64,000 bases of DNA from Nesterenkonia xinjiangensis. Lineage in GTDB: Bacteria; Actinomycetota; Actinomycetes; Actinomycetales; Micrococcaceae. The stretch covers positions 3,162,001 to 3,226,000 of the forward strand of contig NZ_JACCFY010000001.1 of the NCBI RefSeq assembly GCF_013410745.1, written 5' to 3'. Both the position numbers and the translations under genes were made by a program. The notes under the pieces are model-generated. The model was not told the origin of the DNA, did no database searches, and worked only from the letters and a program-made list of their open reading frames with translations. This document shows, one piece after another, positions 4,964-26,021 of the stretch. How positions within the stretch are numbered: the first letter of the stretch is position 1; each line of letters opens with the position of its first letter.

Positions 4964-5922
4964 CGTTGCTCGGCATCGACGTCGGCGGCTCCGGCAGCCG
5001 AGCGGCCCTGCTCGCCGGCGACGGCGCGACACGCTGGGTGCTCCACGGTCCGCGTGTGGAGGTCCGCCCCACCGGGAGCACCGTCGCGGAGATCGTCCAG
5101 GAGCTCATCCGCCAGATCCGCGAGCAGCGTCCAGCGGACCTGCTCGATCTGGAAGGTGCCGCAGTCGGCGCCACCGGCCTCGCCTCCCTCGTGGCCCGGC
5201 CGCAGGACATGCTGGAGCTGCTGGGTCGGGAGACCCGCACTGCCGGGGCGGTGGCCATCGACGCGGTCACCGCACACCTCGGAGCGCTGGGCGGTGCGGG
5301 CGGAGCCGTCACTGCGCTGGGCACCGGTGCCATCACGGTCAGCCACCCTGGTCCGCAAGGCCCCGGCCGCTGGCGGCGGATCGACGGTTGGGGGCATCTG
5401 CTCGGGGACCGAGGGGGAGGATCCTGGGTGGGGCGGCGCGCGCTGGAGACCGCGCTGCGCGCCCATGACGGCCTCGACCCGGCCGGGGCCACGATCCTGG
5501 CGCAGGGCGTCCGCCGGTTCGGACCGCCGGGCAGCTGGCCGGCGCAGATCTATCCGCGCCCGGACCGCGCGGGGGTGCTCGCCTCCTTCGCCCAGGACGT
5601 CGTCGGTCTCGCCGAGCACGATCCCAGCGCCCGGAACATCCTCCGTGAAGCCGGCAGGGAAGCCGCCGCGGGCACCCTGGCGGCGCTCGAGGCCGCCGAG
5701 TGGACCGAGGACACACCGGTCCCGCGCCGGGCGGCGCTCGCCGGAGGTCTGGCCGGGACCACGGGGCACCTCCAGGAGAGCTTCCGCGCCGTGCTCGAGG
5801 AGGCCGATCCGCCTGTGGATCTGGTGCCCTCCCAGGGGGACCCGCTCGACGGCGCCCTGCGCCTGGCGCAGATGGTGGCCGACGGGGTCCGCGTGGCACA
5901 GGAGAGCCATGTCTGGACATGA
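4960..5922 (+). CDS. BadF/BadG/BcrA-type sugar kinase (GlcNAc and/or MurNAc kinase)
   Basis: This 320-residue ASKHA-fold kinase begins with LLGIDVGGSGSRAALL (residues 3-18), the ATP phosphate-1 loop, and has ALGTGAIT and GWGHLLGDRGGGSW motifs found in GlcNAc kinases of this family. Known relatives include human GlcNAc kinase and clostridial MurK, which accepts both MurNAc and GlcNAc. In this operon it could make MurNAc-6-P from imported MurNAc (a second entry point for MurQ) or GlcNAc-6-P. The ATG overlaps the murQ stop (ATGA). It is the last gene of the operon; the next gene has its own -10 box. Confidence 0.85.
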   Translation: MTLLGIDVGGSGSRAALLAGDGATRWVLHGPRVEVRPTGSTVAEIVQELIRQIREQRPADLLDLEGAAVGATGLASLVARPQDMLELLGRETRTAGAVAIDAVTAHLGALGGAGGAVTALGTGAITVSHPGPQGPGRWRRIDGWGHLLGDRGGGSWVGRRALETALRAHDGLDPAGATILAQGVRRFGPPGSWPAQIYPRPDRAGVLASFAQDVVGLAEHDPSARNILREAGREAAAGTLAALEAAEWTEDTPVPRRAALAGGLAGTTGHLQESFRAVLEEADPPVDLVPSQGDPLDGALRLAQMVADGVRVAQESHVWT

Positions 5923-5955
5923 ATCCCGCTTCCCTTCGGGCGCCAGGGCGAGCGA

Positions 5956-5961
5956 TAGGGT
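5956..5961 (+). promoter_or_regulatory. -10 box of the M20 peptidase gene (leaderless)
   Basis: TAGGGT lies 6 bases before the ATG at 5968, so transcription probably begins at or next to the start codon. Confidence 0.6.
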
Positions 5962-5967
5962 GGTCCC

Positions 5968-7287
5968 ATGACTGACGCACTCGACCCCGCAGCCCTCTCC
6001 GAGCAGGACGTCGTCGACTTCTGCCGGGACCTGATCCGGATCGACACCACCAACTGGGGCAACGGGCGCTCCCACGGGGAGCGCGTGGCGGCCGAGTACT
6101 GTGCAGAGATCATGCGCCGGGCAGGTCTCGAGCCACAGATCTTCGAGTCCGCCCCGGGGCGGGCCTCCGTGGTGGCACGCTGGGAGGGCACTGACCCGGA
6201 GGCCGGCGCGCTGGTGGTCCACGGGCACCTCGACGTGGTCCCGGCCCAGGCGGAGGACTGGCAGGTGGACCCCTTCGCCGCCGAGATCGTCGACGGCATG
6301 ATCTGGGGCCGCGGTGCGGTGGACATGAAGGACATGGATGCGATGATCCTTGCCGCGCTGCTGCGCATGCGTCGCGAGGGGCACCGGCCGGAGCGAGACA
6401 TCATCTTCGCCTTCTTCGCCGACGAGGAGGACAACGGCACCTACGGCGCCGGCTGGCTGGTGAAGAACCACCCGGAGCTCTTCGCGGGCGCCACCGAGGC
6501 CATCAGCGAGGTCGGCGGATTCTCGACAGAGATCGCCGGCACCCGCGCCTATCTCATCCAGACCGGTGAGAAGGGCTTGCACTGGACGAAGATGATCGCC
6601 TCGGGCACCGCCGGGCACGGCTCCGCGGTCCAGACCGACAACGCCGTCGTCACCCTCGGTGCTGCCGTCGCGCGCATCGGCGAGCACGAGTGGCCCATCG
6701 AGTACACCAAGACCACCCGGGCCCTGATGGAGCAGCTCTCCGAGCTCACCGGCATCCCCTTCGACGAGCAGGACCCCTCCGCGCTGCTGGAGGCCACCGG
6801 CAGCACCTCGAAGTTCATCGCCGCCACGCTGCGCAACACCTCCAACCCGACGGTGCTGGAGGCCGGTTACAAGCACAACGTGGTCCCGGGCACCGCCGAG
6901 GCGCTCGTCGACGCCCGTACCCTGCCGGACCAGGACGAGAAGGTCGCGGCCACGCTGCAGGAGCTGGCCGGGGACAAGATCCGCTTCGAGCTGCAGAACG
7001 GCGGACCCTCTCTGGAAGTGCCGTTCTCCGGGGCCTTGGTGGAGGACATGGTCGCCTCGCTGCGAGCGGAGGACCCCGAAGGCGTCGTGCTCCCGTACAT
7101 GCTCGGCGGCGGCACGGACAATAAGCACCTCTCCGCGCTGGGCATCGCCGGCTACGGGTTCGCCCCGCTGCAGCTCCCTGCGGAGCTGGACTTCACCGGC
7201 ATGTTCCACGGGGTCGACGAGCGCGTGCCGGTGGACTCGCTGATCTTCGGCGTGCGGGTGCTGCATCGTTTCCTGGCCGCCCAGTGA
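5968..7287 (+). CDS. M20/M25/M40-family metallopeptidase (dipeptidase/deacylase)
   Basis: A 439-residue cytosolic di-zinc hydrolase of the ArgE/DapE/carboxypeptidase G2 superfamily. Visible metal and catalytic motifs are VVHGHLDVVP (residues 83-92, His87 and Asp89), GRGAVDMKD (bridging Asp119), ADEEDNG (general base and metal glutamates 153-154) and a C-terminal MFHGVDERVP with the last metal histidine. Length suits the family, which has a small dimerisation insert. The substrate is not determinable; actinobacterial orthologues are usually annotated simply as M20/M25/M40 peptidases. The ATG is fixed by the -10 box 6 bases upstream. It is downstream of the sugar operon but apparently a separate unit. 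Confidence 0.88.
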   Translation: MTDALDPAALSEQDVVDFCRDLIRIDTTNWGNGRSHGERVAAEYCAEIMRRAGLEPQIFESAPGRASVVARWEGTDPEAGALVVHGHLDVVPAQAEDWQVDPFAAEIVDGMIWGRGAVDMKDMDAMILAALLRMRREGHRPERDIIFAFFADEEDNGTYGAGWLVKNHPELFAGATEAISEVGGFSTEIAGTRAYLIQTGEKGLHWTKMIASGTAGHGSAVQTDNAVVTLGAAVARIGEHEWPIEYTKTTRALMEQLSELTGIPFDEQDPSALLEATGSTSKFIAATLRNTSNPTVLEAGYKHNVVPGTAEALVDARTLPDQDEKVAATLQELAGDKIRFELQNGGPSLEVPFSGALVEDMVASLRAEDPEGVVLPYMLGGGTDNKHLSALGIAGYGFAPLQLPAELDFTGMFHGVDERVPVDSLIFGVRVLHRFLAAQ

Positions 7288-14218: not shown

Positions 14219-14299
14219 GCTCTTCGGTGAGCCCGACGGCGCCCGCCAGGGTGCCCGCGCGAGCAGCGACCTGACACCCTTTCGACGAGAGTGAGATCC

Positions 14300-15436
14300 G
14301 TGAGCACCACCCCCGAGTCCGACCCGGCAGCATCCGTGACCGAGGGTCGCGGCCCTGTGGGCGTGCACATGCGCAAGGGCCCGCTGCAGGCAGGACAGCG
14401 CGTGCAGCTGACCGACCGGCGGGGGAGGCCCAGCACCATCACGCTCCAGCGTGGCGGCGAGTGGCACACGCACCAGGGCGTGCTGCGCCATGACACGCTG
14501 ATCGGCCAGCCGGAGGGGATCGTGGTCGCCAACGACGCCGACCATCAGTACCAGGTGCTGCGGCCCCTGCTCAACGACTACGTCCTCTCCATGCCGCGCG
14601 GGGCGACCGTGGTGTACCCGAAGGATTCTGCGCAGATCGTGCAGATCGCCGACGTCTTCCCCGGAGCGCACGTGGTCGAGGCGGGCGTGGGCTCCGGAGC
14701 CCTCTCGCTGTCCCTGCTGCGTGCCGTCGGCGATCAGGGCACCGTGCACTCCTACGAGCGCCGAGAGGACTTCGCAGAGATCGCTCGGGGGAACGTCGAG
14801 GGCTTCTTCGGCCAGCGGCACCCCGGCTGGCAGGTCCACGTCGGAGACATGCAGGAGCAGGTGCCGCGGATCGAGGCACCGGGCTCGGTGGACCGGGTGG
14901 TGCTGGACATGCTGGCGCCCTGGGAATGCCTCGACGCCGTCCGCCGCGCGCTGGCGCCCGGTGGTGTCTGGGTCAGCTACGTCGCCACCGTCACCCAGCT
15001 GTCGCGGCTGGCCGAGGCGATCCGCGCCTCCGGGGTCTTCACGGAGCCGGAGGCCCACGAGACCATGCTGCGCACCTGGCACCTCGACGGGCTGGCCGTG
15101 CGTCCCGACCATCGGATGGTCGCCCACACCGGCTTCCTGCTCTCCGCGCGTCGGCTCGCCGATGATCAGACGCCGCTGCAGCTGAAGAAGCGGGAGAAGC
15201 AGTCGGAGGTCACCGCTGAGGACATGGCGGCCTGGATGCCTGAGGACGCCGTGTGGGACGAGCACACCCTGAAACGTCGCACCGTCACCGGACGCAAGGC
15301 GCGCAAGGCCGCCACCCATGCGAGGAAGATCGCCGACGCCGCTCGTGAGGGCGACGCCGTCGCGCCGGCCGAGGACGCCGGCCGTGCCGACCACGACCCG
15401 CAGGGCGGGGGCGGCAGAGAGGAGCAGACACCATGA
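14300..15436 (+). CDS. trmI: tRNA (adenine-58-N1)-methyltransferase
   Basis: TrmI makes m1A58 in the T loop of tRNAs using S-adenosylmethionine. The 378-residue protein has the N-terminal beta domain (through VLRHDTLIGQPEG), the SAM-binding loop VVEAGVGSGALSLSLLRAVG, and the DMLAPWE motif typical of this family. A basic C-terminal extension (KRRTVTGRKARKAATHARK) follows. I prefer the GTG at 14300, preceded by GAGAGTGAG; an in-frame GTG at 14291 is the alternative. The stop overlaps arc by four bases, the same trmI-arc linkage as Rv2118c-Rv2115c in Mycobacterium. Confidence 0.92.
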   Translation: MSTTPESDPAASVTEGRGPVGVHMRKGPLQAGQRVQLTDRRGRPSTITLQRGGEWHTHQGVLRHDTLIGQPEGIVVANDADHQYQVLRPLLNDYVLSMPRGATVVYPKDSAQIVQIADVFPGAHVVEAGVGSGALSLSLLRAVGDQGTVHSYERREDFAEIARGNVEGFFGQRHPGWQVHVGDMQEQVPRIEAPGSVDRVVLDMLAPWECLDAVRRALAPGGVWVSYVATVTQLSRLAEAIRASGVFTEPEAHETMLRTWHLDGLAVRPDHRMVAHTGFLLSARRLADDQTPLQLKKREKQSEVTAEDMAAWMPEDAVWDEHTLKRRTVTGRKARKAATHARKIADAAREGDAVAPAEDAGRADHDPQGGGGREEQTP

Positions 15437-17160
15437 GCCAGGAGCACACCCCCGGTTCCCCGACCGGACCGACGACTGCCTCCGCCGAGCAGCTGCAGGA
15501 GCGGCTCGACCGCACCCACCGGCAGCTGGACGCGCTGCGCCAGCGCAGCCGGCAGCTCGAGCAGCAGCTGCAGACCGCCGGGACCAACAACCAGCGGATG
15601 GCCCGCCTGCTGGAGACCACCCGGAACCAGATGGACCAGCTGCGCCAGGCGCTGCACGCCGACGGGCAGGCTCCCTTCACCTTCGGGACCGTGATCGGCT
15701 ATCGGGAGAAGCATGAGCTTGTCGAGGGCCGCGAGATCGAGGCCACCACCGGGCCCGGCGTTGACATCCTCCACGCGGGTCGCAAGATGAGGGTCAGCGT
15801 GTCGCCGCTGCTCGATCCGGCAGAGCTCCGCCCCGGGCTGGAGGTGCTGCTCAACGAGCACCTCGCCGTGGTGGCGGTCCTGCCGGCCGAGTCCACCGGT
15901 GAGCTCGCCCGCGTCAAGGAAGTGCTGCCCGACGGCCGACTGGTGATCCTCAGCCGGGGAGAGGACGAGCGGGTGGTGCGGCTGGCCCTCGGTGAGGGGG
16001 ACGTCAGCGTCCGGGTGGGCGACGCCGTCACAGTGGATCTGCGCACCGGCACCGCCACCGAGGTCGTCCCGCTCTCGGAGGTGGAGGACGTGGTGCTCGA
16101 GGAGACCCCGGATGTGTCCTACGCGGACATCGGAGGGCTCTCTGAGCAGATCGAACAGATCCGTGACGCCGTGGAGCTGCCGTTCCTGCACTCTGACCTG
16201 TATCGCGAACACGGGCTCAGCGCGCCCAAGGGCATCCTGCTCTACGGGCCGCCCGGCTGCGGCAAGACGCTGATCGCCAAGGCGGTGGCCTCCTCGCTGC
16301 AGGGCGGAGGCGCTCCCGGCGGGCACAAGAACGGGGAGGTCGCGGCCCCGCGCAGCTTCTTCCTCAACATCAAGGGCCCTGAGCTGCTCAACAAGTACGT
16401 CGGCGAGACCGAGCGGCACATCCGGGTGATCTTCTCCCGGGCGCGGGAGCGCGCATCGGCGGGCCACCCCGTGGTGGTCTTCTTCGACGAGATGGAGGCG
16501 CTGTTCCGGACTCGCGGCACCGGAGTCTCCTCGGATGTGGAGACCACCATCGTCCCGCAGCTGCTGGCCGAGATCGACGGAGTGGAGTCGCTGGACAACG
16601 TCATCGTCATCGGCGCCTCCAACCGTGAGGACATGATCGACCCGGCGATCCTGCGTCCGGGCCGCCTGGACGTTAAGATCCGCGTCCGCCGGCCGGGTGC
16701 GGCCGGTGCGCGCGAGATCCTGGGCATCCATCTGGGCGGACGTCTGCCGCTGCGCGCCGACTTCGTGGCGGAGCAGGGCGGCCACGCCTCGGCTGTCCAG
16801 GCATTGGTCGAGGCCGTCGTCGCCCGGCTCTATCCGGCAGAGTCGGAGCCACGGCTGCGACTGGTCCATGCCGACGGGTCCCGCACCGACTTCGCCGCCG
16901 CGGACTTCATCTCCGGCGCCGTGCTGAGCAACATCGTCGACCGGGCCAAGAAGTCCGCGATCAAGGAGTTCCTGGCCTCGGACCGCCGCCCCGACGCCAA
17001 GGGGCTGACGGAGGACCAGCTGCTGGCGGCCGCTGAGGCAGAGCTGCGGGACCAGGAGGATCTGGTGAACACCGTCGACCCGCAGGAATGGGCGCGCGTG
17101 CTGGGGGCGGCCCCGTCCCCGGTGGTCGGCGTCGAGCGGCTGGCCGGAGGCCCGTCATGA
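15433..17160 (+). CDS. arc: ARC/Mpa AAA ATPase of the pupylation system
   Basis: A ring-forming AAA unfoldase that recognises Pup. Order of domains in 575 residues: N-terminal coiled coil that binds Pup (about 17-76), tandem OB folds (80-220), AAA module with Walker A GPPGCGKT (272-279), pore loop KYVGE (321-325), Walker B VVFFDE (348-353). In species with a 20S proteasome the protein ends in a GQYL docking motif. Here the last residues are GVERLAGGPS, with no GQYL. The proteasome core genes are also missing from this locus, so ARC probably acts without a protease partner, as in Corynebacterium. It overlaps trmI and dop by four bases each. Confidence 0.95.
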   Translation: MSQEHTPGSPTGPTTASAEQLQERLDRTHRQLDALRQRSRQLEQQLQTAGTNNQRMARLLETTRNQMDQLRQALHADGQAPFTFGTVIGYREKHELVEGREIEATTGPGVDILHAGRKMRVSVSPLLDPAELRPGLEVLLNEHLAVVAVLPAESTGELARVKEVLPDGRLVILSRGEDERVVRLALGEGDVSVRVGDAVTVDLRTGTATEVVPLSEVEDVVLEETPDVSYADIGGLSEQIEQIRDAVELPFLHSDLYREHGLSAPKGILLYGPPGCGKTLIAKAVASSLQGGGAPGGHKNGEVAAPRSFFLNIKGPELLNKYVGETERHIRVIFSRARERASAGHPVVVFFDEMEALFRTRGTGVSSDVETTIVPQLLAEIDGVESLDNVIVIGASNREDMIDPAILRPGRLDVKIRVRRPGAAGAREILGIHLGGRLPLRADFVAEQGGHASAVQALVEAVVARLYPAESEPRLRLVHADGSRTDFAAADFISGAVLSNIVDRAKKSAIKEFLASDRRPDAKGLTEDQLLAAAEAELRDQEDLVNTVDPQEWARVLGAAPSPVVGVERLAGGPS

Positions 17161-18860
17161 GTGTGCGTCGGCTGATCGGCATGGAGACCGAGTACGGCAT
17201 CCACGCCCCGCAGAATCCACGGGCCAGCCATGTGGCGCTGTCCATCGAGCTGGTCAACGCCTATGCGGCGGCGGTCACCGAAGAGGGCGGCGCCGTCGCC
17301 GGCACGGAGTGGGACTACCAGTCCGAGTCCCCGCTGGTGGACGCCCGCGGCTGGGTGCTGCCGCGCTCCGCCGCGCATGCCAGCCAGCTCACCGACACCG
17401 CTGAGGCGCTGGACGGCGTGAGCGGGGGAGATCCTTCGCCCGCGGACGTCGCGAGCCCGGCCGACGTCTCCGAGGGGCAGCAGGGGCACGGGGACTCCGA
17501 GTTCCATGCGCCCGGCTCCGCACACTGGCGGGGCGACTTCTTCCGGCTGCGTGAGGGGCAGCCGCAGCTGCTGATGAACCTGGTGCTGTCCAACGGGGCG
17601 CGGCTCTATGTGGACCACGCCCACCCGGAGTACTCGGCCCCGGAGACCATCGGCGCCAGGCGCGCCGTGCTCTACGACGTCGCCGGTGACGTCATCGTGC
17701 GCCGTGCCGCGCAGCGGCTGGCTGACGAGGAGGGCAGCCCGGAGCTGCTGCTGTACAAGAACAACACCGACGGCAAGTCCGTCTCCTATGGGGCGCACGA
17801 GAACTACCTGGTCCCGCGCGAGGTGCCTTTCGACCAGCTGGTCGCCGGACTCATCCCGTTCTTCGTGACGCGGCAGATCATCTGCGGCGCGGGGCGGTTG
17901 GGGATCGGTCAGCGGGCCACCGGCGTCGGATTCCAGATCTCCCAGCGCGCAGACTTCTTCGAGGAGGAGGTCGGCCTGGAGACGACGGTCCGTCGGCCGA
18001 TCATCAACACCCGGGACGAGCCGCACGCGGACGCGGACCGGCATCGCCGGCTCCATGTGATCATCGGCGATGCCAACATGAGCGAGTACTCCGCCTGGCT
18101 GCGCGTGGGCACCACGGCGCTGGTGCTGGACCTGATCGAGTCCGGACATGCCCCGCAACTTCGCCTGCACGATCCCGTGGAGGCACTGAAGGCGATCTCT
18201 CACGATCCCTCGCTGACCACCACCGTGCGGACGAACCGTGGCCAGATGACGGCCCTGGACATCCAGCGGCTCTACCTGAAGGCCGCGATCTCCCGTGCCT
18301 CGGAGAAGTCCGGGCCGAAGACCGCGCTCACCGCCCCGGACACGGAGACCGCCGAGATCCTCGAAGCCTGGGGGACGCTGCTGGAGGATCTCACCGAGGA
18401 CGTCTCGCAGGCGGCGGACCGTGTCGACTGGGTCGCGAAGCTGGCCCTGATGGAGTCCTACCGGCGCCGTGACGGGCTGGACTGGGATGCGCCCCAGCTG
18501 AAGCTGATCGACCTGCAGTACGCCGATCTGCGGCCTGAACGCGGGCTGTACCACAAGCTCGTACGGGCCGGCCGGATGCGGCGGCTGTTCTCCGACGAGC
18601 AGATCGCGTGGGCCGCCGCGCACCCGCCGGAGGAGACCCGCGCCTGGCTGCGCGGCCAGCTGGTCGCCCAGCACTCCGAGCACCTCGTGGGGGCCAGCTG
18701 GGACCAGATCCTGCTCCGCACAGGCCCGCTGGCCCGCGCCACCCGGCTCAGCATGACCGAACCGACCCGCGGCTCCCGGAACGACGCCGAGCTGGTCCTG
18801 CTCGACGCCGACACCCCGGAGAAGCTGGTGGCCGGTCTGACCCGGCTGCTGCAGCCCTGA
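17157..18860 (+). CDS. dop: depupylase/deamidase of Pup
   Basis: Dop deamidates the C-terminal Gln of Pup to Glu and also removes Pup from proteins; it is a glutamine-synthetase-like enzyme. The 567-residue protein shows GMETEYGIHAP (residues 8-18), NGARLYVDHAHPEYSAPE (146-163), KNNTDGKSVSYGAHENYL, RPIINTRDEPHADADRHRRL and VIIGDANMSEYS. Usual length is near 500; the excess is an insert of about 55 residues between ARGW (63-66) and NGARLY (146-151), rich in Asp, Ser and Gly, in the region of the regulatory Dop-loop. The ATG overlaps the arc stop; pup follows after 143 bases. Confidence 0.95.
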   Translation: MSVRRLIGMETEYGIHAPQNPRASHVALSIELVNAYAAAVTEEGGAVAGTEWDYQSESPLVDARGWVLPRSAAHASQLTDTAEALDGVSGGDPSPADVASPADVSEGQQGHGDSEFHAPGSAHWRGDFFRLREGQPQLLMNLVLSNGARLYVDHAHPEYSAPETIGARRAVLYDVAGDVIVRRAAQRLADEEGSPELLLYKNNTDGKSVSYGAHENYLVPREVPFDQLVAGLIPFFVTRQIICGAGRLGIGQRATGVGFQISQRADFFEEEVGLETTVRRPIINTRDEPHADADRHRRLHVIIGDANMSEYSAWLRVGTTALVLDLIESGHAPQLRLHDPVEALKAISHDPSLTTTVRTNRGQMTALDIQRLYLKAAISRASEKSGPKTALTAPDTETAEILEAWGTLLEDLTEDVSQAADRVDWVAKLALMESYRRRDGLDWDAPQLKLIDLQYADLRPERGLYHKLVRAGRMRRLFSDEQIAWAAAHPPEETRAWLRGQLVAQHSEHLVGASWDQILLRTGPLARATRLSMTEPTRGSRNDAELVLLDADTPEKLVAGLTRLLQP

Positions 18861-18884
18861 GCGGGGCGTGTCTGCGGGGCCGTC

Positions 18885-18914
18885 CTGACGGCCTCGGTGG
18901 CAGGGTCGTAGACT
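18885..18914 (+). promoter_or_regulatory. probable promoter of pup-pafA
   Basis: CTGACG at 18885-18890 and TAGACT at 18909-18914 are separated by 18 bases. The ATG of pup follows 89 bases later, behind GAAGAGGAG. This would let pup be transcribed apart from dop. Confidence 0.45.
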
Positions 18915-19003
18915 CGACCTGAGGCCTGAGAGAGATCGAGACCGCCGAACCGTCGGCGCCCAGCCCGGGCGGCGTCACCTCGGCGGGGAGAAGAGGAGCG
19001 ACC

Positions 19004-19219
19004 ATGCCGTCCCAGCCGCAGCGCCGTCCCAGCGAGAGCGCCCAGGACCGACCCGCAGTGCCCGACGACGGCGCCGCAGCTCCGGTGCCCGCCGGCGGCA
19101 GCACCCAGTCCCAGGGCCGCGCCGAGGAGCTCGACAGCCTGCTCGACGAGATCGACTCGGTGCTGGAGACCAACGCGGAGGAGTTCGTCAAGGGGTTCGT
19201 CCAGAAGGGCGGGCAGTAG
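19004..19219 (+). CDS. pup: prokaryotic ubiquitin-like protein Pup
   Basis: The 71-residue modifier that is attached to substrate lysines. It is disordered and polar at the N-terminus, has a helical ARC-binding segment (AEELDSLLDEIDSVLETNAE, about residues 40-59), and ends FVKGFVQKGGQ. The final Gln71 shows that Dop must deamidate it before PafA can ligate it. It is preceded by GAAGAGGAG 7 bases before the ATG. pafA begins 4 bases after its stop; no prcB/prcA lie between, unlike mycobacteria. Confidence 0.96.
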   Translation: MPSQPQRRPSESAQDRPAVPDDGAAAPVPAGGSTQSQGRAEELDSLLDEIDSVLETNAEEFVKGFVQKGGQ

Positions 19220-19223
19220 CCGG

Positions 19224-20708
19224 ATGGAGCGACGCGTCGTCGGTGTGGAGACCGAGTTCGGACTGGCCCACCAGGGGCGCGGGCGGCGCGGTCTGCCGCC
19301 CGACGAGGCGGCCCGCTACCTGTTCCGCCCGGTGGTCGACTGGGGGCGCAGCTCCAACGTCTTCATCCCCAACGGCTCCCGCCTCTACCTCGATGTCGGC
19401 TCCCATCCGGAATACGCCACCGCCGAGTGTGACGACCTCCTCGACCTCATCGCCTCGGACCGCGCCGGCGAGCTGATCATGCATGATCTCGCGCTCCGCG
19501 CCCAGGAGGCGATGGCCGCCGACGGGCTGCCCGGCTCGGTGTACCTGCTGAAGAACAACATCGATTCCCAGGGCAACTCCTACGGATCCCATGAGAACTA
19601 CCTGATTCCGCGCACCACCCATTTCCGGCGGCTCTCCACGGTGCTGCTGCCCTTCCTGGTCACGCGGCAGATCATCGCCGGGGCCGGGCGGATCGTGCCC
19701 CCAACCGAGGACCAGGAGGCCCATTTCGCCTTCTCCCAGCGGGCGGACCACATGTGGGAGGGCATCTCGTCGGCCACCACCCGCTCTCGGCCGATCATCA
19801 ACACTCGCGACGAGCCGCACGCCGATGCGGCCGTGCATCGTCGGCTGCACGTCATCGTCGGGGACTCCAGCATGTCCGAGACCACCCAGCTGCTGCGCTT
19901 CGGCTCCACGGACCTGGTGCTGCGAATGATCGAGTCAGGGGCGCCCCTGGGGGATCATGAGCTGGAGAACCCGATCAGCGCGATCCGCCACATCAGCCAT
20001 GACGTCACCGGCCGGGCGAGGGTGCGGACACGGGAGGGCCGCCAGGTGACCGCCGTGGAGATCCAGCAGAACCTGTTCGATCGGGCACGGAGCTTCGTGG
20101 CTCGGCACGGTGCTCACCACGATCGTGTCGGGGAGGTCCTCGAGCTCTGGGGCCGCGCCGTGGAGGCGGTCGCCAGCGGGGACCACTCGCTCATCGATCG
20201 CGAGATCGACTGGGCGATCAAACGACGACTCATCGATGAGGTTGCCGGCCGAGCCGGGCTCGGGCTCGGTGACGCGCGACTGGACCAGATCGACTTCGCC
20301 TATCACGACATCCACCCGGACCGAGGGCTGTTCCACCTGCTGGTCCGCCGGGGGCGGGCCGTGCGGCTGCTCGACGAGGCCCGGCTGCGACGTGCGATCA
20401 CCGATCCGCCGGCCACGACACGTGCGGCGGTGCGGGGACGCTTCCTCTCCGCGGCCCGGGCCCATGGCGCCGGGCACACCGTGGACTGGGTGCATCACAA
20501 GCTGGTGGACCGGCCCCTGGAGGCCGTCATGGTCAAGGATCCCTTCGCCGCCGAGGATCCGCGGGTCGACACGCTGCTGGGCAGGCTCCGCGGCGAACTG
20601 CGCGAGCTCGACGACGCCGAGCGGGAGGCACAGCCGGGACCGCTGGCGCTCTCCGAACGGTATGTGGCGACATCGCCGGTGCCTCCGCCGGAGCCGCCGC
20701 TCATCTGA
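19224..20708 (+). CDS. pafA: Pup--protein ligase
   Basis: PafA activates the deamidated C-terminal Glu of Pup with ATP and joins it to lysine side chains. The 494-residue, Dop-related protein starts VVGVETEFGLAHQG and contains NGSRLYLDVGSHPEYATAE, LKNNIDSQGNSYGSHENYL, RPIINTRDEPHADAAVHRRL and a conserved C-terminal helical domain. It lacks the Dop-loop, which separates it from Dop. The C-terminus is about 40 residues longer than the mycobacterial enzyme and Pro/Glu rich. The start, ATG at 19224, sits 4 bases after pup. Confidence 0.95.
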   Translation: MERRVVGVETEFGLAHQGRGRRGLPPDEAARYLFRPVVDWGRSSNVFIPNGSRLYLDVGSHPEYATAECDDLLDLIASDRAGELIMHDLALRAQEAMAADGLPGSVYLLKNNIDSQGNSYGSHENYLIPRTTHFRRLSTVLLPFLVTRQIIAGAGRIVPPTEDQEAHFAFSQRADHMWEGISSATTRSRPIINTRDEPHADAAVHRRLHVIVGDSSMSETTQLLRFGSTDLVLRMIESGAPLGDHELENPISAIRHISHDVTGRARVRTREGRQVTAVEIQQNLFDRARSFVARHGAHHDRVGEVLELWGRAVEAVASGDHSLIDREIDWAIKRRLIDEVAGRAGLGLGDARLDQIDFAYHDIHPDRGLFHLLVRRGRAVRLLDEARLRRAITDPPATTRAAVRGRFLSAARAHGAGHTVDWVHHKLVDRPLEAVMVKDPFAAEDPRVDTLLGRLRGELRELDDAEREAQPGPLALSERYVATSPVPPPEPPLI

Positions 20709-20825
20709 GGAGACGCGCTGACCTGGAGCGACGCCTCTGCCCTGAGCGAGGCTCCGGGTCGACCCTGTACAGTTCACCCTGGCGACATCACCGCCCGCCC
20801 CGATCAGTTGTGGAGGACACCCTTC

Positions 20826-21956
20826 GTGCGAAAGATGCAATACGCCCTGGCTGCCCCGGCAGTGCTGCTGCTGGCCGGCTGCTCCAGCGACGGACTCGGC
20901 GACACCTCGGCTCTGTCGGGGATCGATCTGCACTTCACCGACGAGGGTGTTCCCGAGGTGCTGATCAGCAATCCTGTGGAGTCCGACGAGGAGTCCTCGC
21001 TGATCCTGTCCCAGGGGGACGGCGATGAGCTGGATCCGGAGCAGATCCTGCACGTGTCCTCGGCGACGGTCGACCCGGCCAGCGGCGCGGTGCAGCAGGA
21101 GAACTTCAGCGAGGACACGCCCTCGCTGCTGTTCCTGCCGATGATCCAGGAGCAGAGCGAGTTCATCTACGACTCGCTGGTGGACACCGGGGCGACCGTC
21201 GGCTCCGACATCGCACTCTATGAGCCGGGCAGCGCCGAGACCGGCGGTGCGGACTCGCTGGTGATCCTCCGCATCGATGACCAGGTGCCCGCCCATGCGA
21301 CCGGCGAGGAGCAGGAGCAGAGCGGAGACCTGCCGGAGATCACCTCGGAGGTCGGCGAAGCTCCCACGCTCCCCGCCGCTCCCGATGAGGAGGAGGCTCC
21401 GGAGGAGACCGAGAGCGAGGTGCTCATCGCCGGCGAGGGTGCGGAGATCGGAGCCACTGACCAGGTCGTGGTCCGCTACACCGGCTGGACATGGTCCGAC
21501 GGGGAGGTCTTCGACTCCGCGTGGCCGGGCGTCACACCTCCGGACTCGGAGCAGGCTGCCGAGGACGGGACCACCGAGGACGAGGAAGCCGAGGACGACG
21601 GCGAGGACGACGAGGCCGCGTCGGTGCCGCCAGCCAGTTTCCCCCTGGACAACCTGGTGGACGGATGGGCCGAAGGGCTGGAGGGCAAGCACGTCGGTGA
21701 CCGTGTGCTTCTGGTGATCCCGCCGGAGTCCGGCTACGGCGAGGCCGAGGGCCATGATCTGCAGGACGAGACGCTGATCTTCGTGGTGGACCTCATCGCC
21801 TCCGCCCCGGCGCCCGAGCAGACCCAGGAGCAGATGCCGGAGCAGCCCGAGCTCACGGAGGAGGAGCTCGAGGAGCTCGAGGAGATGATGCAGGAGCAGG
21901 GCGGCGAGGACGCAGACGCCGACGACACAGACGCCGACGACACAGACGACGACTGA
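20826..21956 (+). CDS. FKBP-type peptidyl-prolyl isomerase lipoprotein
   Basis: A 376-residue secreted lipoprotein: signal peptide ending at the lipobox LLAGC (lipidated Cys19). The first half (30-165) looks like a degenerate FKBP domain. The second (about 205-330) is a recognisable FKBP core with VVVRYTGWTWSDGEVFDSAW and a C-terminal PPESGYGEAEG, interrupted by an acidic insert. Linkers and the tail are strongly acidic, ending in Asp-rich repeats. The GTG at 20826 follows GGAGGACA. It lies between pafA and a small FKBP, a common order in Micrococcales. A role in folding of exported proteins is likely from the family. Confidence 0.85.
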   Translation: MRKMQYALAAPAVLLLAGCSSDGLGDTSALSGIDLHFTDEGVPEVLISNPVESDEESSLILSQGDGDELDPEQILHVSSATVDPASGAVQQENFSEDTPSLLFLPMIQEQSEFIYDSLVDTGATVGSDIALYEPGSAETGGADSLVILRIDDQVPAHATGEEQEQSGDLPEITSEVGEAPTLPAAPDEEEAPEETESEVLIAGEGAEIGATDQVVVRYTGWTWSDGEVFDSAWPGVTPPDSEQAAEDGTTEDEEAEDDGEDDEAASVPPASFPLDNLVDGWAEGLEGKHVGDRVLLVIPPESGYGEAEGHDLQDETLIFVVDLIASAPAPEQTQEQMPEQPELTEEELEELEEMMQEQGGEDADADDTDADDTDDD

Positions 21957-22539: not shown

Positions 22540-24912
22540 GTGGTCGGGTACCGGCACATCAGCCGCCGCGCCGCGGACCGCGTCGTGGGCATCGACGGGG
22601 GCATCGACGGGGACGTCGTCGCGGAGTATGAGGCCGCCTCGCACGCCACGGGTGCGGAGGAGACTCAGGACGTCACCGCCGACTCCGGGGTGAGCCGTGC
22701 CCTGTCCCTGGCCGCCACGCTGATCGACGCCGCGCCGAGCGGACTGACCAAGGCTGAGGTCCGGGAGCGCGTCGAGCACTACCGGACTGCGGGTGACGGG
22801 GCCTCGGCGGAGGCTTTCGAGCAGCAGTTCAGCCGGGACAAGCGGCATCTGCGACGCATCGGCATCGAGATCACCGAGCAGGGTGGCGGTGCGGAGGATC
22901 GCGAGGGTCGTGGAGGCGACCACGAGTTCCGCTATCTGATCGATCCTCAGGCCCACGGGCTGCCGCTGCTGGAGCTGGACGCCGAGGAGGTCGTCGCGCT
23001 GCGGCACACCGAGCTGCTGTGGAGCGGCACCCGAGCCCAGCAGGCGATCCGTCAGGCCTCGGGAGCGCTGCTCGCGCCTCATCTCGGCGAGGGCGGGCTC
23101 CCCGACGTCGGCGGACCGGCGCAGTCCCAGCCGTCGGCGGTCCGCCTGGGACTGGCGGACGATCAGGTCCTCGACCACCTGGCCGTGCTGGCTGAGGCCC
23201 GCGGCTCACGGGTCGTCGGATTCGACTACGGCCCGCGCGGCCGGCACCGCGCTGAACGCCGCCGGACTCTGCCTCTGGGCGTGGGGTCGCGCGGCGGCTG
23301 GTACCTGGTGGGCCACGACCTGGACCGCGATGCCGTGCGGGTCTACCGATTGGACCGCATCCGGGGGGCGATCGAGCCGCTCACGGTGCAGGACGACGGT
23401 GCCGCCGCCATCCTGCAGGGCATCGCGGAGGGACGGGTCGATCCCCGGAAGGTCACCCAGGAGCAGCTCGAGACCCTGGGGCCGGTCCATGGTACCGAGA
23501 CCGTGGAGCTCGCGGTCGCCGAGGCGCTGGTGCCCTCCTTCCTGCCGCATGCCCGGGCGCAGAGTGCTGAGGATGTTGAGAGCGCGGATGGTGCGGTCAC
23601 TCAGCGCCGGCGGAGCCGAGGAGACGGCGCCCGCAGGCTCACCGTGGAGACTTCGCTGCACGACTCCTTCGTCGGGAAGGTCGCGGCGGCGGGGCCCCAG
23701 GTGCACATCCTGTCCGGTCATCGGCTCACCGCTCTGGTGCGGTCCCACCTCGAGTCGGTGCTGCGCGCCCACCGGGACGTCCCGGCGGAGCCGATCGAGC
23801 TGAAGCCGGTCAAGCACGGGGCGAGGAACGACGCCCTGGTCAAGATCGCCCGTGTGGTGAGCATCGCCGCCTATCTGCAGGCCTCCGGCGGCGCCAGGGT
23901 CAGCGACCTGCTCCGGCGCTACAGCCTGGAACCCCGCCAGCTGCACCGCGACCTGCTCTCACTGCAGCAGTCTGCGGCCTTCGACGACGCGCAGTTCGGC
24001 CACTACATCGACATCACCCCGGAGCTGCCGCTGACCCGTCGCGTCTTCGAGGAGCGGCTGGTCCCGGAGGATCCGGTGATCAGGGTGCAGCTGCCCGGGG
24101 AGCGGCTCAGCAGCACCCTGGGCAGGCCGCTGCGGCTCTCCACCCCGCAGGCGCTGTCCCTGCTCATCGGACTCGAGGGTCTGATCGCCTCGGAGGACCC
24201 CACTGAGGAGCTGGTCCGGGCCGCCGCCGAGCGGCTGCGTGACCGGATCCGGGCCATCGTGCCTGAGGAGCTCGACGTCACCGCAGCCGAGCTGAGTGTG
24301 GTCTGGCACAGCGACGATGACTTCGGCCGGGAGCCCCAGCTGCACGCGGCCCTGGGGGCCGGTCATGCCGTGGAGCTGCTCTATGAGGACCTTCAGGGGC
24401 GGCGCACCAGGCGCACCGTCGATCCGGTGAACCTGCTGCATGACGGGCCACGCACCTATCTGCGTGCCTGGTGCCGCTCTGCCCAGGGGGAGCGGAACTT
24501 CCTGCTGTCTCGGATGCTGGAGCTTCGTCCGCTTCCGGAGACGCCGTTGAGCCGGGAGTCGCTCCGGCTGGCCGCCGAGCCCGCGCGGCGTCCTGAGGTT
24601 CCCCGGCTGCCCGAGGACACGCTGGTCACGCTGCGCTTCGCCCCGTCGGCCGTCGCACTCGCCGACGGCTGGGCGCCGCTGCGAGAGGCGTGGCATGAGG
24701 GCGGCGCCCGCACGGTGGAGGTCGCACTGCGCAGCCCGGCCATCGCCGTCGACCTGGCCCTGCGCTCTGGCGGCGACGTCACCGTCACCGCTCCGGAGGA
24801 GCTCTCTGCGGAGGTGCTGCACCGGGCCGAGGCGGCGTTGGCGGCGGTGCGGAGGAACGCGTCCAGCTGCGTGGAGTATCCTGAGACACAGACGAAAGGA
24901 CGCACTCCATGA
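22540..24912 (+). CDS. pafBC: fused PafB-PafC WYL-domain DNA damage regulator
   Basis: A 790-residue fusion of two WYL-type regulators that most actinobacteria encode as separate pafB and pafC. First half: winged HTH with ALSLAATLIDAAPSGLTKAEVRE (about 55-110) and a WYL domain including GSRGGWYLVGHDLDRDAVRVYRLDRI. Second half starts about residue 418 with a second HTH (VSIAAYLQASGGARVSDLLRRY) and a second WYL domain (LHDGPRTYLRAWCR). Known PafBC activates the mycobacterial LexA/RecA-independent DNA damage response. The GTG at 22540 has no strong ribosome site, so the exact N-terminus is uncertain. It overlaps tatA by four bases. Confidence 0.9.
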   Translation: MVGYRHISRRAADRVVGIDGGIDGDVVAEYEAASHATGAEETQDVTADSGVSRALSLAATLIDAAPSGLTKAEVRERVEHYRTAGDGASAEAFEQQFSRDKRHLRRIGIEITEQGGGAEDREGRGGDHEFRYLIDPQAHGLPLLELDAEEVVALRHTELLWSGTRAQQAIRQASGALLAPHLGEGGLPDVGGPAQSQPSAVRLGLADDQVLDHLAVLAEARGSRVVGFDYGPRGRHRAERRRTLPLGVGSRGGWYLVGHDLDRDAVRVYRLDRIRGAIEPLTVQDDGAAAILQGIAEGRVDPRKVTQEQLETLGPVHGTETVELAVAEALVPSFLPHARAQSAEDVESADGAVTQRRRSRGDGARRLTVETSLHDSFVGKVAAAGPQVHILSGHRLTALVRSHLESVLRAHRDVPAEPIELKPVKHGARNDALVKIARVVSIAAYLQASGGARVSDLLRRYSLEPRQLHRDLLSLQQSAAFDDAQFGHYIDITPELPLTRRVFEERLVPEDPVIRVQLPGERLSSTLGRPLRLSTPQALSLLIGLEGLIASEDPTEELVRAAAERLRDRIRAIVPEELDVTAAELSVVWHSDDDFGREPQLHAALGAGHAVELLYEDLQGRRTRRTVDPVNLLHDGPRTYLRAWCRSAQGERNFLLSRMLELRPLPETPLSRESLRLAAEPARRPEVPRLPEDTLVTLRFAPSAVALADGWAPLREAWHEGGARTVEVALRSPAIAVDLALRSGGDVTVTAPEELSAEVLHRAEAALAAVRRNASSCVEYPETQTKGRTP

Positions 24913-25172
24913 ACATCACCGGTTGGCAGATCGCCATCATCGCCCTGCTCATCATCCTGCTGTTCGGTGCGCCGAAGCTTCCGCAGCTGGCCAAGTCCGT
25001 GGGCCAGTCGATGCGCATCTTCAAGTCCGAGGTCCGCACGATGAACGACGAGTCCCAGGACAAGGAGCCCGAACCCGACGCCGACGAGCGCCCGGCGGTG
25101 GAAGGCCGCGTGGTGGACCCCTCCGAGTCTCCGCGCCGCCGCGGCTCGGAGCAGCGCCGGGACCACGCCTGA
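24909..25172 (+). CDS. tatA: twin-arginine translocase subunit TatA
   Basis: An 87-residue single-span membrane protein: N-terminal hydrophobic helix (GWQIAIIALLIILLFGAPKL, residues 5-24) with the FGxxKLP hinge, an amphipathic helix (PQLAKSVGQSMRIFKSEV) and an acidic, charged tail. TatA oligomers form the pore for folded twin-arginine proteins. The ATG overlaps the pafBC stop, with AAAGGACG upstream. tatC follows 9 bases later; tatB is not in this cluster, as usual in actinobacteria. Confidence 0.95.
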   Translation: MNITGWQIAIIALLIILLFGAPKLPQLAKSVGQSMRIFKSEVRTMNDESQDKEPEPDADERPAVEGRVVDPSESPRRRGSEQRRDHA

Positions 25173-25181
25173 GGGCGGCCG

Positions 25182-26021
25182 ATGGCCGGGACGCAGGACG
25201 AGGATCCCCGGACCACCGGACGACGCCGCAGGAAGAGACGCCGCAGGGACGCTGAGGGGAAGATGCCCCTCAAGGAGCATCTGCGTGAGCTCCGCAACCG
25301 CCTGATCAAAGCCTGTCTCGGCATCGTCGTGGGTGCGGTCGCGGGCTTCTTCCTCTATGACACGATCTTTGCGCTGCTGAGCTCCCCGGTGGTCGACTTC
25401 GACGACGTCGACCGCAGCACCGAGATCGCTTTCAACACGGTCGGGCAGCCGCTGGACCTGATGATCCGCATCTCCCTTTTCGTGGGCATCGTGATCTCGT
25501 CTCCGGTGTGGCTCTATCAGGTGTGGGCGTTCATCATGCCCGGGCTGCAGAAGAAGGAGAAGCGCTATGCGATGGGCTTCATCGCCGCCTCGGTGCCGTT
25601 GTTCGTCATCGGGATCGCCATGGCCTATGTGGTGCTGCCGCAGGCGATCCGCTTCTTCTTCACCCTGAACCCCGAGGGCACCTCCAACATCATCGCCCCG
25701 GATGTCTACTTCACCTTCGTGCTGCACCTCTTCCTGGCCTTCGGGATCGCGATGGTCATCCCGGTCGTGCTGGTCGGGGTGAACATGATGGGCCTGATCA
25801 CCGGTCGGCGGGTGCTCAAGAGCTGGCGCGGCACGCTGATGTTCATCGCGCTGATCTCCGCGATGGCCGCCCCCGGCGGTGACGCGATCACCATGTTCTT
25901 CATCGCCGGGCCCCTGGTGGTGCTCTTCGGGGTCGCGATCGTGCTCTGCCTGCTCAATGACAAGCGGCGCGAGAAGCGCGTGGCCGCGCGTGAGGCCGCC
26001 AACGAGGATCTCGTCGCCTAG
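25182..26021 (+). CDS. tatC: twin-arginine translocase subunit TatC
   Basis: The polytopic receptor for twin-arginine signal peptides. The 279-residue protein has a basic N-terminal extension (RRRRKRRRRD-like), the signature MPLKEHLRELRNRLIKA (about residues 28-44), six hydrophobic segments, and the conserved SPVWLYQVWAFIMPGL loop containing the Phe/Glu environment of the signal-binding site. Length is normal. It follows tatA directly and ends the pup-tat block; a perfect inverted repeat follows. Confidence 0.95.
   Translation: MAGTQDEDPRTTGRRRRKRRRRDAEGKMPLKEHLRELRNRLIKACLGIVVGAVAGFFLYDTIFALLSSPVVDFDDVDRSTEIAFNTVGQPLDLMIRISLFVGIVISSPVWLYQVWAFIMPGLQKKEKRYAMGFIAASVPLFVIGIAMAYVVLPQAIRFFFTLNPEGTSNIIAPDVYFTFVLHLFLAFGIAMVIPVVLVGVNMMGLITGRRVLKSWRGTLMFIALISAMAAPGGDAITMFFIAGPLVVLFGVAIVLCLLNDKRREKRVAAREAANEDLVA

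Follow-up and report, generated by a model that had tools for sequence, protein, structure and literature searches.

Pupylation without a 20S proteasome in Nesterenkonia xinjiangensis, and intermediate loci among its relatives

The subject of this study is the pupylation locus of Nesterenkonia xinjiangensis (Micrococcaceae), which lies in a 64,000-nucleotide stretch of its genome (contig NZ_JACCFY010000001.1, forward strand, positions 3,162,001 to 3,226,000; hereafter the window, to which all coordinates refer). The locus encodes the Mpa-type proteasomal ATPase ARC, Dop, Pup and PafA, and at the place where 20S-bearing relatives carry prcB and prcA it has only four bases. This raises the question of what Pup does here and of how the 20S came to be missing. 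We consider it likely that the window holds an intact 20S-less pupylation cassette in which ARC would reversibly unfold or take apart Pup-tagged proteins and not degrade them, and from which the 20S was lost secondarily.

The four genes of the pathway lie on the forward strand, their frames are all open, and each product passes the cut-off of its NCBIfam equivalog model: arc (15433..17160, 575 aa; TIGR03689, 688.8 bits, cut-off 504.75), dop (17157..18860, 567 aa; TIGR03688, 615.9 bits, cut-off 492.3), pup (19004..19219, 71 aa; TIGR03687, 76.3 bits, cut-off 41.45) and pafA (19224..20708, 494 aa; TIGR03686, 664.6 bits, cut-off 551.3). By sequence, the locus thus supplies a Pup with a GGQ end, which needs deamidation by Dop, the PafA ligase and the Dop deamidase/depupylase. 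The pup stop codon ends at 19219 and the pafA ATG stands at 19224, leaving the 4-base gap (19220..19223) that a sequence-only reading of this DNA had described; that reading had also called dop, pup and pafA contiguous, which is right for the genes and their order, but 143 bases separate dop from pup. The spacing of pup and pafA is approximately 1.5-2.0 kb where prcBA intervene and 2-6 bases in most loci without them.

The absence extends beyond the locus. A profile search with PF00227, positive in 10 of 14 control genomes, gave no match across the whole genome, a single contig of 3,569,370 bases (99.57% complete); as this family also covers HslV, HslV is absent too. The sequence-only reading had noted prcBA to be missing from the window and had proposed a genome-wide search for prcA and prcB, which returns no 20S gene anywhere. 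The proteasome activator Bpa gave no PF10759 match either, in a search that was positive in 5 of 30 genomes and had no named positive control. In addition, the ARC translation ends in VERLAGGPS, without the C-terminal GQYL that marks ARCs encoded beside prcBA (coupled ARCs). With neither a 20S nor the docking tail of ARC, Pup cannot feed a 20S in this organism.

Which parts of the pathway are conserved was assessed with near-invariant residues, defined against 71 coupled ARCs, 70 Dop, 55 PafA and 69 Pup sequences. Dop keeps 136 of 144 such residues, PafA 172 of 192, and the last 30 residues of Pup 18 of 19. Within ARC, the AAA+ part keeps 145 of 158 and the OB part 24 of 28; in the alignment of the C-terminal docking region (residues 526-575; 17008..17157, forward strand), which ends in GQYL in coupled ARCs, the count falls to 10 of 35. 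L005 and L162, two more loci from the Nesterenkonia clade, encode ARCs that have lost this end further back and stop before the last strand region. The comparison suggests that the docking end of the window's ARC is decaying and that the remainder of the pathway is kept.

The mechanism we propose is built by analogy. Dop would deamidate the GGQ end of Pup, and PafA would couple Pup to lysines of target proteins; the ARC hexamer would then grip Pup and pull on the target, which may be unfolded, disassembled or remodelled. Because there is no 20S chamber and no docking tail, the target would be released rather than degraded, and Dop would strip Pup off again. Since the parts are the same as those of Corynebacterium glutamicum, reversible remodelling as proposed there is the likeliest function, and the earlier proposal that Pup tags proteins for ARC-driven unfolding or regulation rather than degradation is, by this analogy and given the missing 20S and tail, the best inference. 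Two PF00210 (ferritin family) matches occur in the genome, one ferritin-like and one Dps-like when the translations are read by eye, and the ferritin-like gene is a possible target.

Across the family, the 20S is dispensed with far more often than Pup. Among 295 Micrococcaceae genomes, 294 have Pup and 162 have a PF00227 match, and 132 have Pup without 20S; among the 286 of good quality, the figures are 286 for Pup and 158 for 20S. Pup is missing only from G067, an 82% complete assembly that also lacks a 20S. PF00227 does not match in any of the 19 same-genus genomes listed. A sample of 296 genomes from the class contains 20S in 237 and Pup in 241, and comparison of the lists by eye leaves 9 of the 241 Pup-bearing genomes without 20S. 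20S-less pupylation is common in the Micrococcaceae and uncommon in the class sample. The same comparison gave five genomes with 20S and no Pup match (G308, G423, G433, G445 and G556), some of them incomplete assemblies.

The ARC tail closely follows the 20S in this family. In all 80 20S-bearing genomes tested (from 151 not otherwise fetched, a set outside which Enteractinococcus and genome G001 lie), the ARC alignment extends to the end (residue 560 or 561) of a GQYL-ending query 561 residues long. An equal number of 20S-less genomes, from 114 not otherwise fetched, yielded ARC in 79 cases, none of which aligns to the query end without a stop; GQYL is likewise absent from ARC in all 20 20S-less genomes fetched for reading. 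A raw tally of 110 loci (80 named, 29 fetched and the window) gives 71 with GQYL and prcBA, 30 with neither, four with prcBA and no GQYL, three with GQYL and a piece of one subunit, and two with GQYL and no subunit. This tally includes duplicates (L019/L119, L054/L132, L061/L128 and L068/L137) and stretches cut beside the locus (L040, L045, L063, L072, L019 and L119), and it scores L019/L119 as lacking 20S although their genome, G167, has PF00227 matches. Four of the five GQYL loci without full prcBA are cut by the end of the stretch; the fifth, L129, is real. Loss is recent in genus g26, where G077 has neither prcBA nor GQYL and G026 and G054 have both. Apparent tail fossils in genus g23, where ARC alignments pass through a stop to residues 545-560, were rejected, as the alignment there runs meaninglessly into the start of dop. 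In locus L133 (G014), approximately 2.1 kb (5109-7233) lie between the dop and pup matches, as against a short gap in most loci.

Other markers of coupling are less exact. The first residue of the Mpa-type hairpin (described for Mpa in PMC8755798) is A in 25 of 25 coupled ARCs and never A in the four uncoupled ARCs from 20S-bearing genomes; since A also starts the hairpin in 8 of the 24 20S-less ARCs, that of the window included, this feature is supporting evidence only. Excerpts of two papers report strict co-occurrence of Bpa and 20S (PMC8223512, PMC4254994). Among the 30 genomes searched with PF10759, a model that may miss some members, 11 have 20S and four of these have a Bpa match; those unmatched are G001, four Enteractinococcus genomes, G015 and G025. 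The last two (loci L138 and L124) have 20S and a GQYL-bearing ARC, contrary to the published co-occurrence. For Cpa, TIGR01243 at an E-value of 1e-100 gave no match in 16 genomes, 20S-bearing ones included, and matched only four archaeal controls; it is therefore uninformative on Cpa.

How the tail and the 20S parted is indicated by two kinds of intermediate. The first keeps the 20S beside a tail-less ARC: in three Enteractinococcus genomes (genus g21; G093, G110 and G155) and in G001 (genus g2), prcB and prcA lie between pup and pafA, and ARC lacks GQYL. A fourth Enteractinococcus genome, G167, combines PF00227 matches with an ARC that lacks GQYL, and there is one ARC per genome in these intermediates. 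Loci L114, L115, L118 and L136 show prcBA at the pup-pafA site with a GQYL-less ARC. Five further g21 genomes (G021, G049, G073, G125 and G140) are without prcBA. PrcB of the intermediates retains TT, the start of the mature chain, and a GDRR stretch. The ratio of nonsynonymous to synonymous substitution rates (dN/dS) for prcB and prcA is 0.053 and 0.062 in the pair G110/G155 and 0.107 and 0.109 in G093/G110, within the span of eight coupled pairs (prcB 0.028-0.191, prcA 0.028-0.160); Enteractinococcus prcBA are therefore under purifying selection, a result that applies to this genus alone, as g2 is represented by one genome. In a PrcBA tree, G001 and Enteractinococcus group together (support 1.0); they fall within the Micrococcaceae (1.0), and their stem is long (0.58) and their sister poorly supported (0.27). 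This placement, with the unchanged gene position, speaks for descent over transfer of their prcBA.

The second intermediate is the reverse. Genome G008 (genus g9; locus L129) has no PF00227 match and retains GQYL at the end of its ARC. At approximately 5715-5990 of L129, in the interval from pup to pafA, there is one short open frame with a PrcB-like start and a PrcA-like end, the latter 57% identical by tblastn to PrcA residues 202-231. It is probably a prcB-prcA fusion remnant, the trace of one internal deletion, as read in the assembly. G008 also has a Bpa-like frame (L144) of approximately 139 aa, with a PF10759 profile match at 51-161 and a GQYL end, and without two blocks found in four other Bpa proteins. 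For one genome, G008 contradicts the claim, made in the excerpted text of a 2012 review (PMC3511204), that such a motif is missing from the ATPases of organisms without a 20S.

The order of loss was examined on a FastTree tree of 55 rows, built from dop, pafA and the core of arc, with 60 bootstraps. Five of 60 rows were dropped: L063, cut before prcBA, and the duplicates or near-duplicates L054, L061, L068 and L035; L002 was scored by hand as lacking GQYL, its first frame match being wrong. Below the most recent common ancestor (MRCA) of the window and G001, the main tree has 17 tips, none with GQYL and four with prcBA, and every tip of this clade is GQYL-less in 60 of 60 bootstraps. Loss-only counting gives 11 losses of 20S (bootstraps 10-15) and five of GQYL (3-6), and under an irreversible model the probability that GQYL was already absent at this MRCA is 0.98 (bootstrap median 0.988, minimum 0.754). 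On this basis the window's lineage probably lost the ARC tail before the 20S, as most probably did the wider clade, and the 20S genes went secondarily. A fuller account, to which we give about even odds, is that ARC and Pup were divorced from the 20S while it was still there: GQYL was dropped, Bpa disappeared, non-degradative pupylation became the main job, and prcBA were then lost repeatedly. The abandoned 20S would still be at its old site in Enteractinococcus and g2; being under purifying selection in Enteractinococcus, it must act there either by itself or through an unrecognised activator, and in cells where Pup tagging continues.

Tail-first loss presupposes that losses are irreversible, and independent tail losses are possible, which counts against it; it also depends on the arc/dop/pafA tree mirroring the species tree. 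The opposite order, in which the window's lineage lost the 20S first, its ARC tail decayed later, and the tails of Enteractinococcus and g2 were lost independently, is the alternative that survives best. G008 shows that 20S loss is possible with GQYL retained, decay of the tail afterwards requires only relaxed selection, and the bootstrap minimum noted above also counts in its favour. We nevertheless regard this order as unlikely, because it requires several tail losses within a clade that contains no GQYL tip.

A different objection concerns the fate of the tagged protein. The genome has four PF00574 (ClpP) matches and the ARC motor is conserved, so that ARC might hand Pup-tagged proteins to another protease such as ClpP1P2, and pupylation would still be degradative; the ClpP matches tell against the non-degradative interpretation to this extent. 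Delivery to another protease is improbable, however: no new conserved C-terminal motif is seen, the tails of 20S-less ARCs vary in length and sequence, and those of L005 and L162, in the same clade, are truncated as described above. We know of no report of ARC working with ClpP.

The pathway could also be the decaying remains of a former Pup-proteasome system, and some observations do weigh against an intact cassette. The AAA lid region of the window's ARC keeps only 22 of 35 near-invariant residues, and its C terminus is eroded. For arc, dop, pup and pafA, pairs within Nesterenkonia have dN/dS values between 0.16 and 0.40, well above the 0.01-0.13 of most other pairs; these values reflect either weaker constraint or an underestimated synonymous rate (codon bias was uncorrected), and are not clean evidence of constraint. 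A PafA value of 0.97 for L058/L059 is an artefact, the L058 match being Dop, and was excluded. Greater sequence variation in species without a 20S is reported in the 2012 review (PMC3511204, in part). Against this stand four open frames that pass equivalog cut-offs, the retention of most near-invariant residues in the enzymes and the motor, and the near-universal presence of Pup in a family in which little more than half of the genomes have a 20S, and we judge a relic very improbable. That a 20S is present and was overlooked is scarcely credible: PF00227 can miss highly divergent subunits and completeness falls short of 100%, leaving room for extreme divergence or an assembly gap, but the genome is a single contig without a candidate, the same-genus genomes listed have none, and the docking tail of ARC is gone.

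The genes around the cassette, all on the forward strand, agree with the block from trmI to tatC that the sequence-only reading had called complete, with two amendments. Upstream of arc is a trmI-like tRNA methyltransferase gene (14291..15436; Pfam TrmI-like_N 87.6 bits, GCD14 74 bits). Downstream are pafBC (22540..24912; Pfam WYL in two stretches, HTH_PafC and WCX), which is a single fused gene of 790 aa, and tatA (24909-25172; TatA_B_E 59.7 bits) and tatC (25182-26021; TatC 198.3 bits), together 24909..26021; a gene for an FKBP-type peptidyl-prolyl isomerase (20808..21956; FKBP_C 52.2 bits) intervenes between pafA and pafBC. The closest named ARC proteins, with all of which the window groups in the tree, are those of N. 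halophila (75%), N. ebinurensis (70%) and N. sphaerica (67%).

In the open-access literature we found no report of a pupylating bacterium with both a 20S and a tail-less ARC, none of a tail without a 20S, and only one unrelated paper for pupylation or the proteasome in Nesterenkonia. According to the excerpted 2012 review, 20S-less actinobacteria are a route to judging Pup as a degradation signal or a regulatory tag (PMC3511204). The Micrococcaceae by themselves span a natural series of states: coupled 20S and ARC, 20S with uncoupled ARC, tailed ARC without 20S, and neither; the order of events, a role of Pup other than degradation and the dependence of a 20S on its ATPase thereby become testable in related bacteria of culturable type.

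Published systems, cited here from partial texts, place the window as follows. The Pup-proteasome systems of Mycobacterium and Streptomyces have the same enzymes, tag and gene order, but their 20S core, Bpa and GQYL tail are absent from the genome of the window, and with them every mark of a degradative system sought here. Propionibacterium acnes resembles the first kind of intermediate in having an orphan 20S without a GQYL activator and differs in having no ARC (PMC4254994); in Enteractinococcus and g2 the 20S is accompanied by Pup, PafA, Dop and a tail-less ARC. Micrococcus luteus and Kocuria rhizophila, of the same family, appear as 20S-less in published figures that give presence or absence only (PMC8223512, PMC4254994). 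20S-less actinobacteria are described as having pup immediately before pafA, with the ATPase kept and its proteasome-binding motif missing (PMC3511204). C. glutamicum is of this type: pup adjoins pafA, prcBA are missing, and Dop is retained together with an ARC whose proteasome motif is absent (PMC3511204, PMC8223512). The same features are found in the window. For C. glutamicum, the view taken in reviews is that ARC disassembles pupylated ferritin and Dop recycles it, with release of iron (PMC8223512, PMC12288473). The sequence-only reading was apt in naming Corynebacterium as a known case of pupylation without a proteasome. The window differs in belonging to another family and in its fused pafBC, and the ferritin substrate is described for C. 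glutamicum. The window locus is a further instance of an already published kind, and the interest lies in the intermediates among its relatives.

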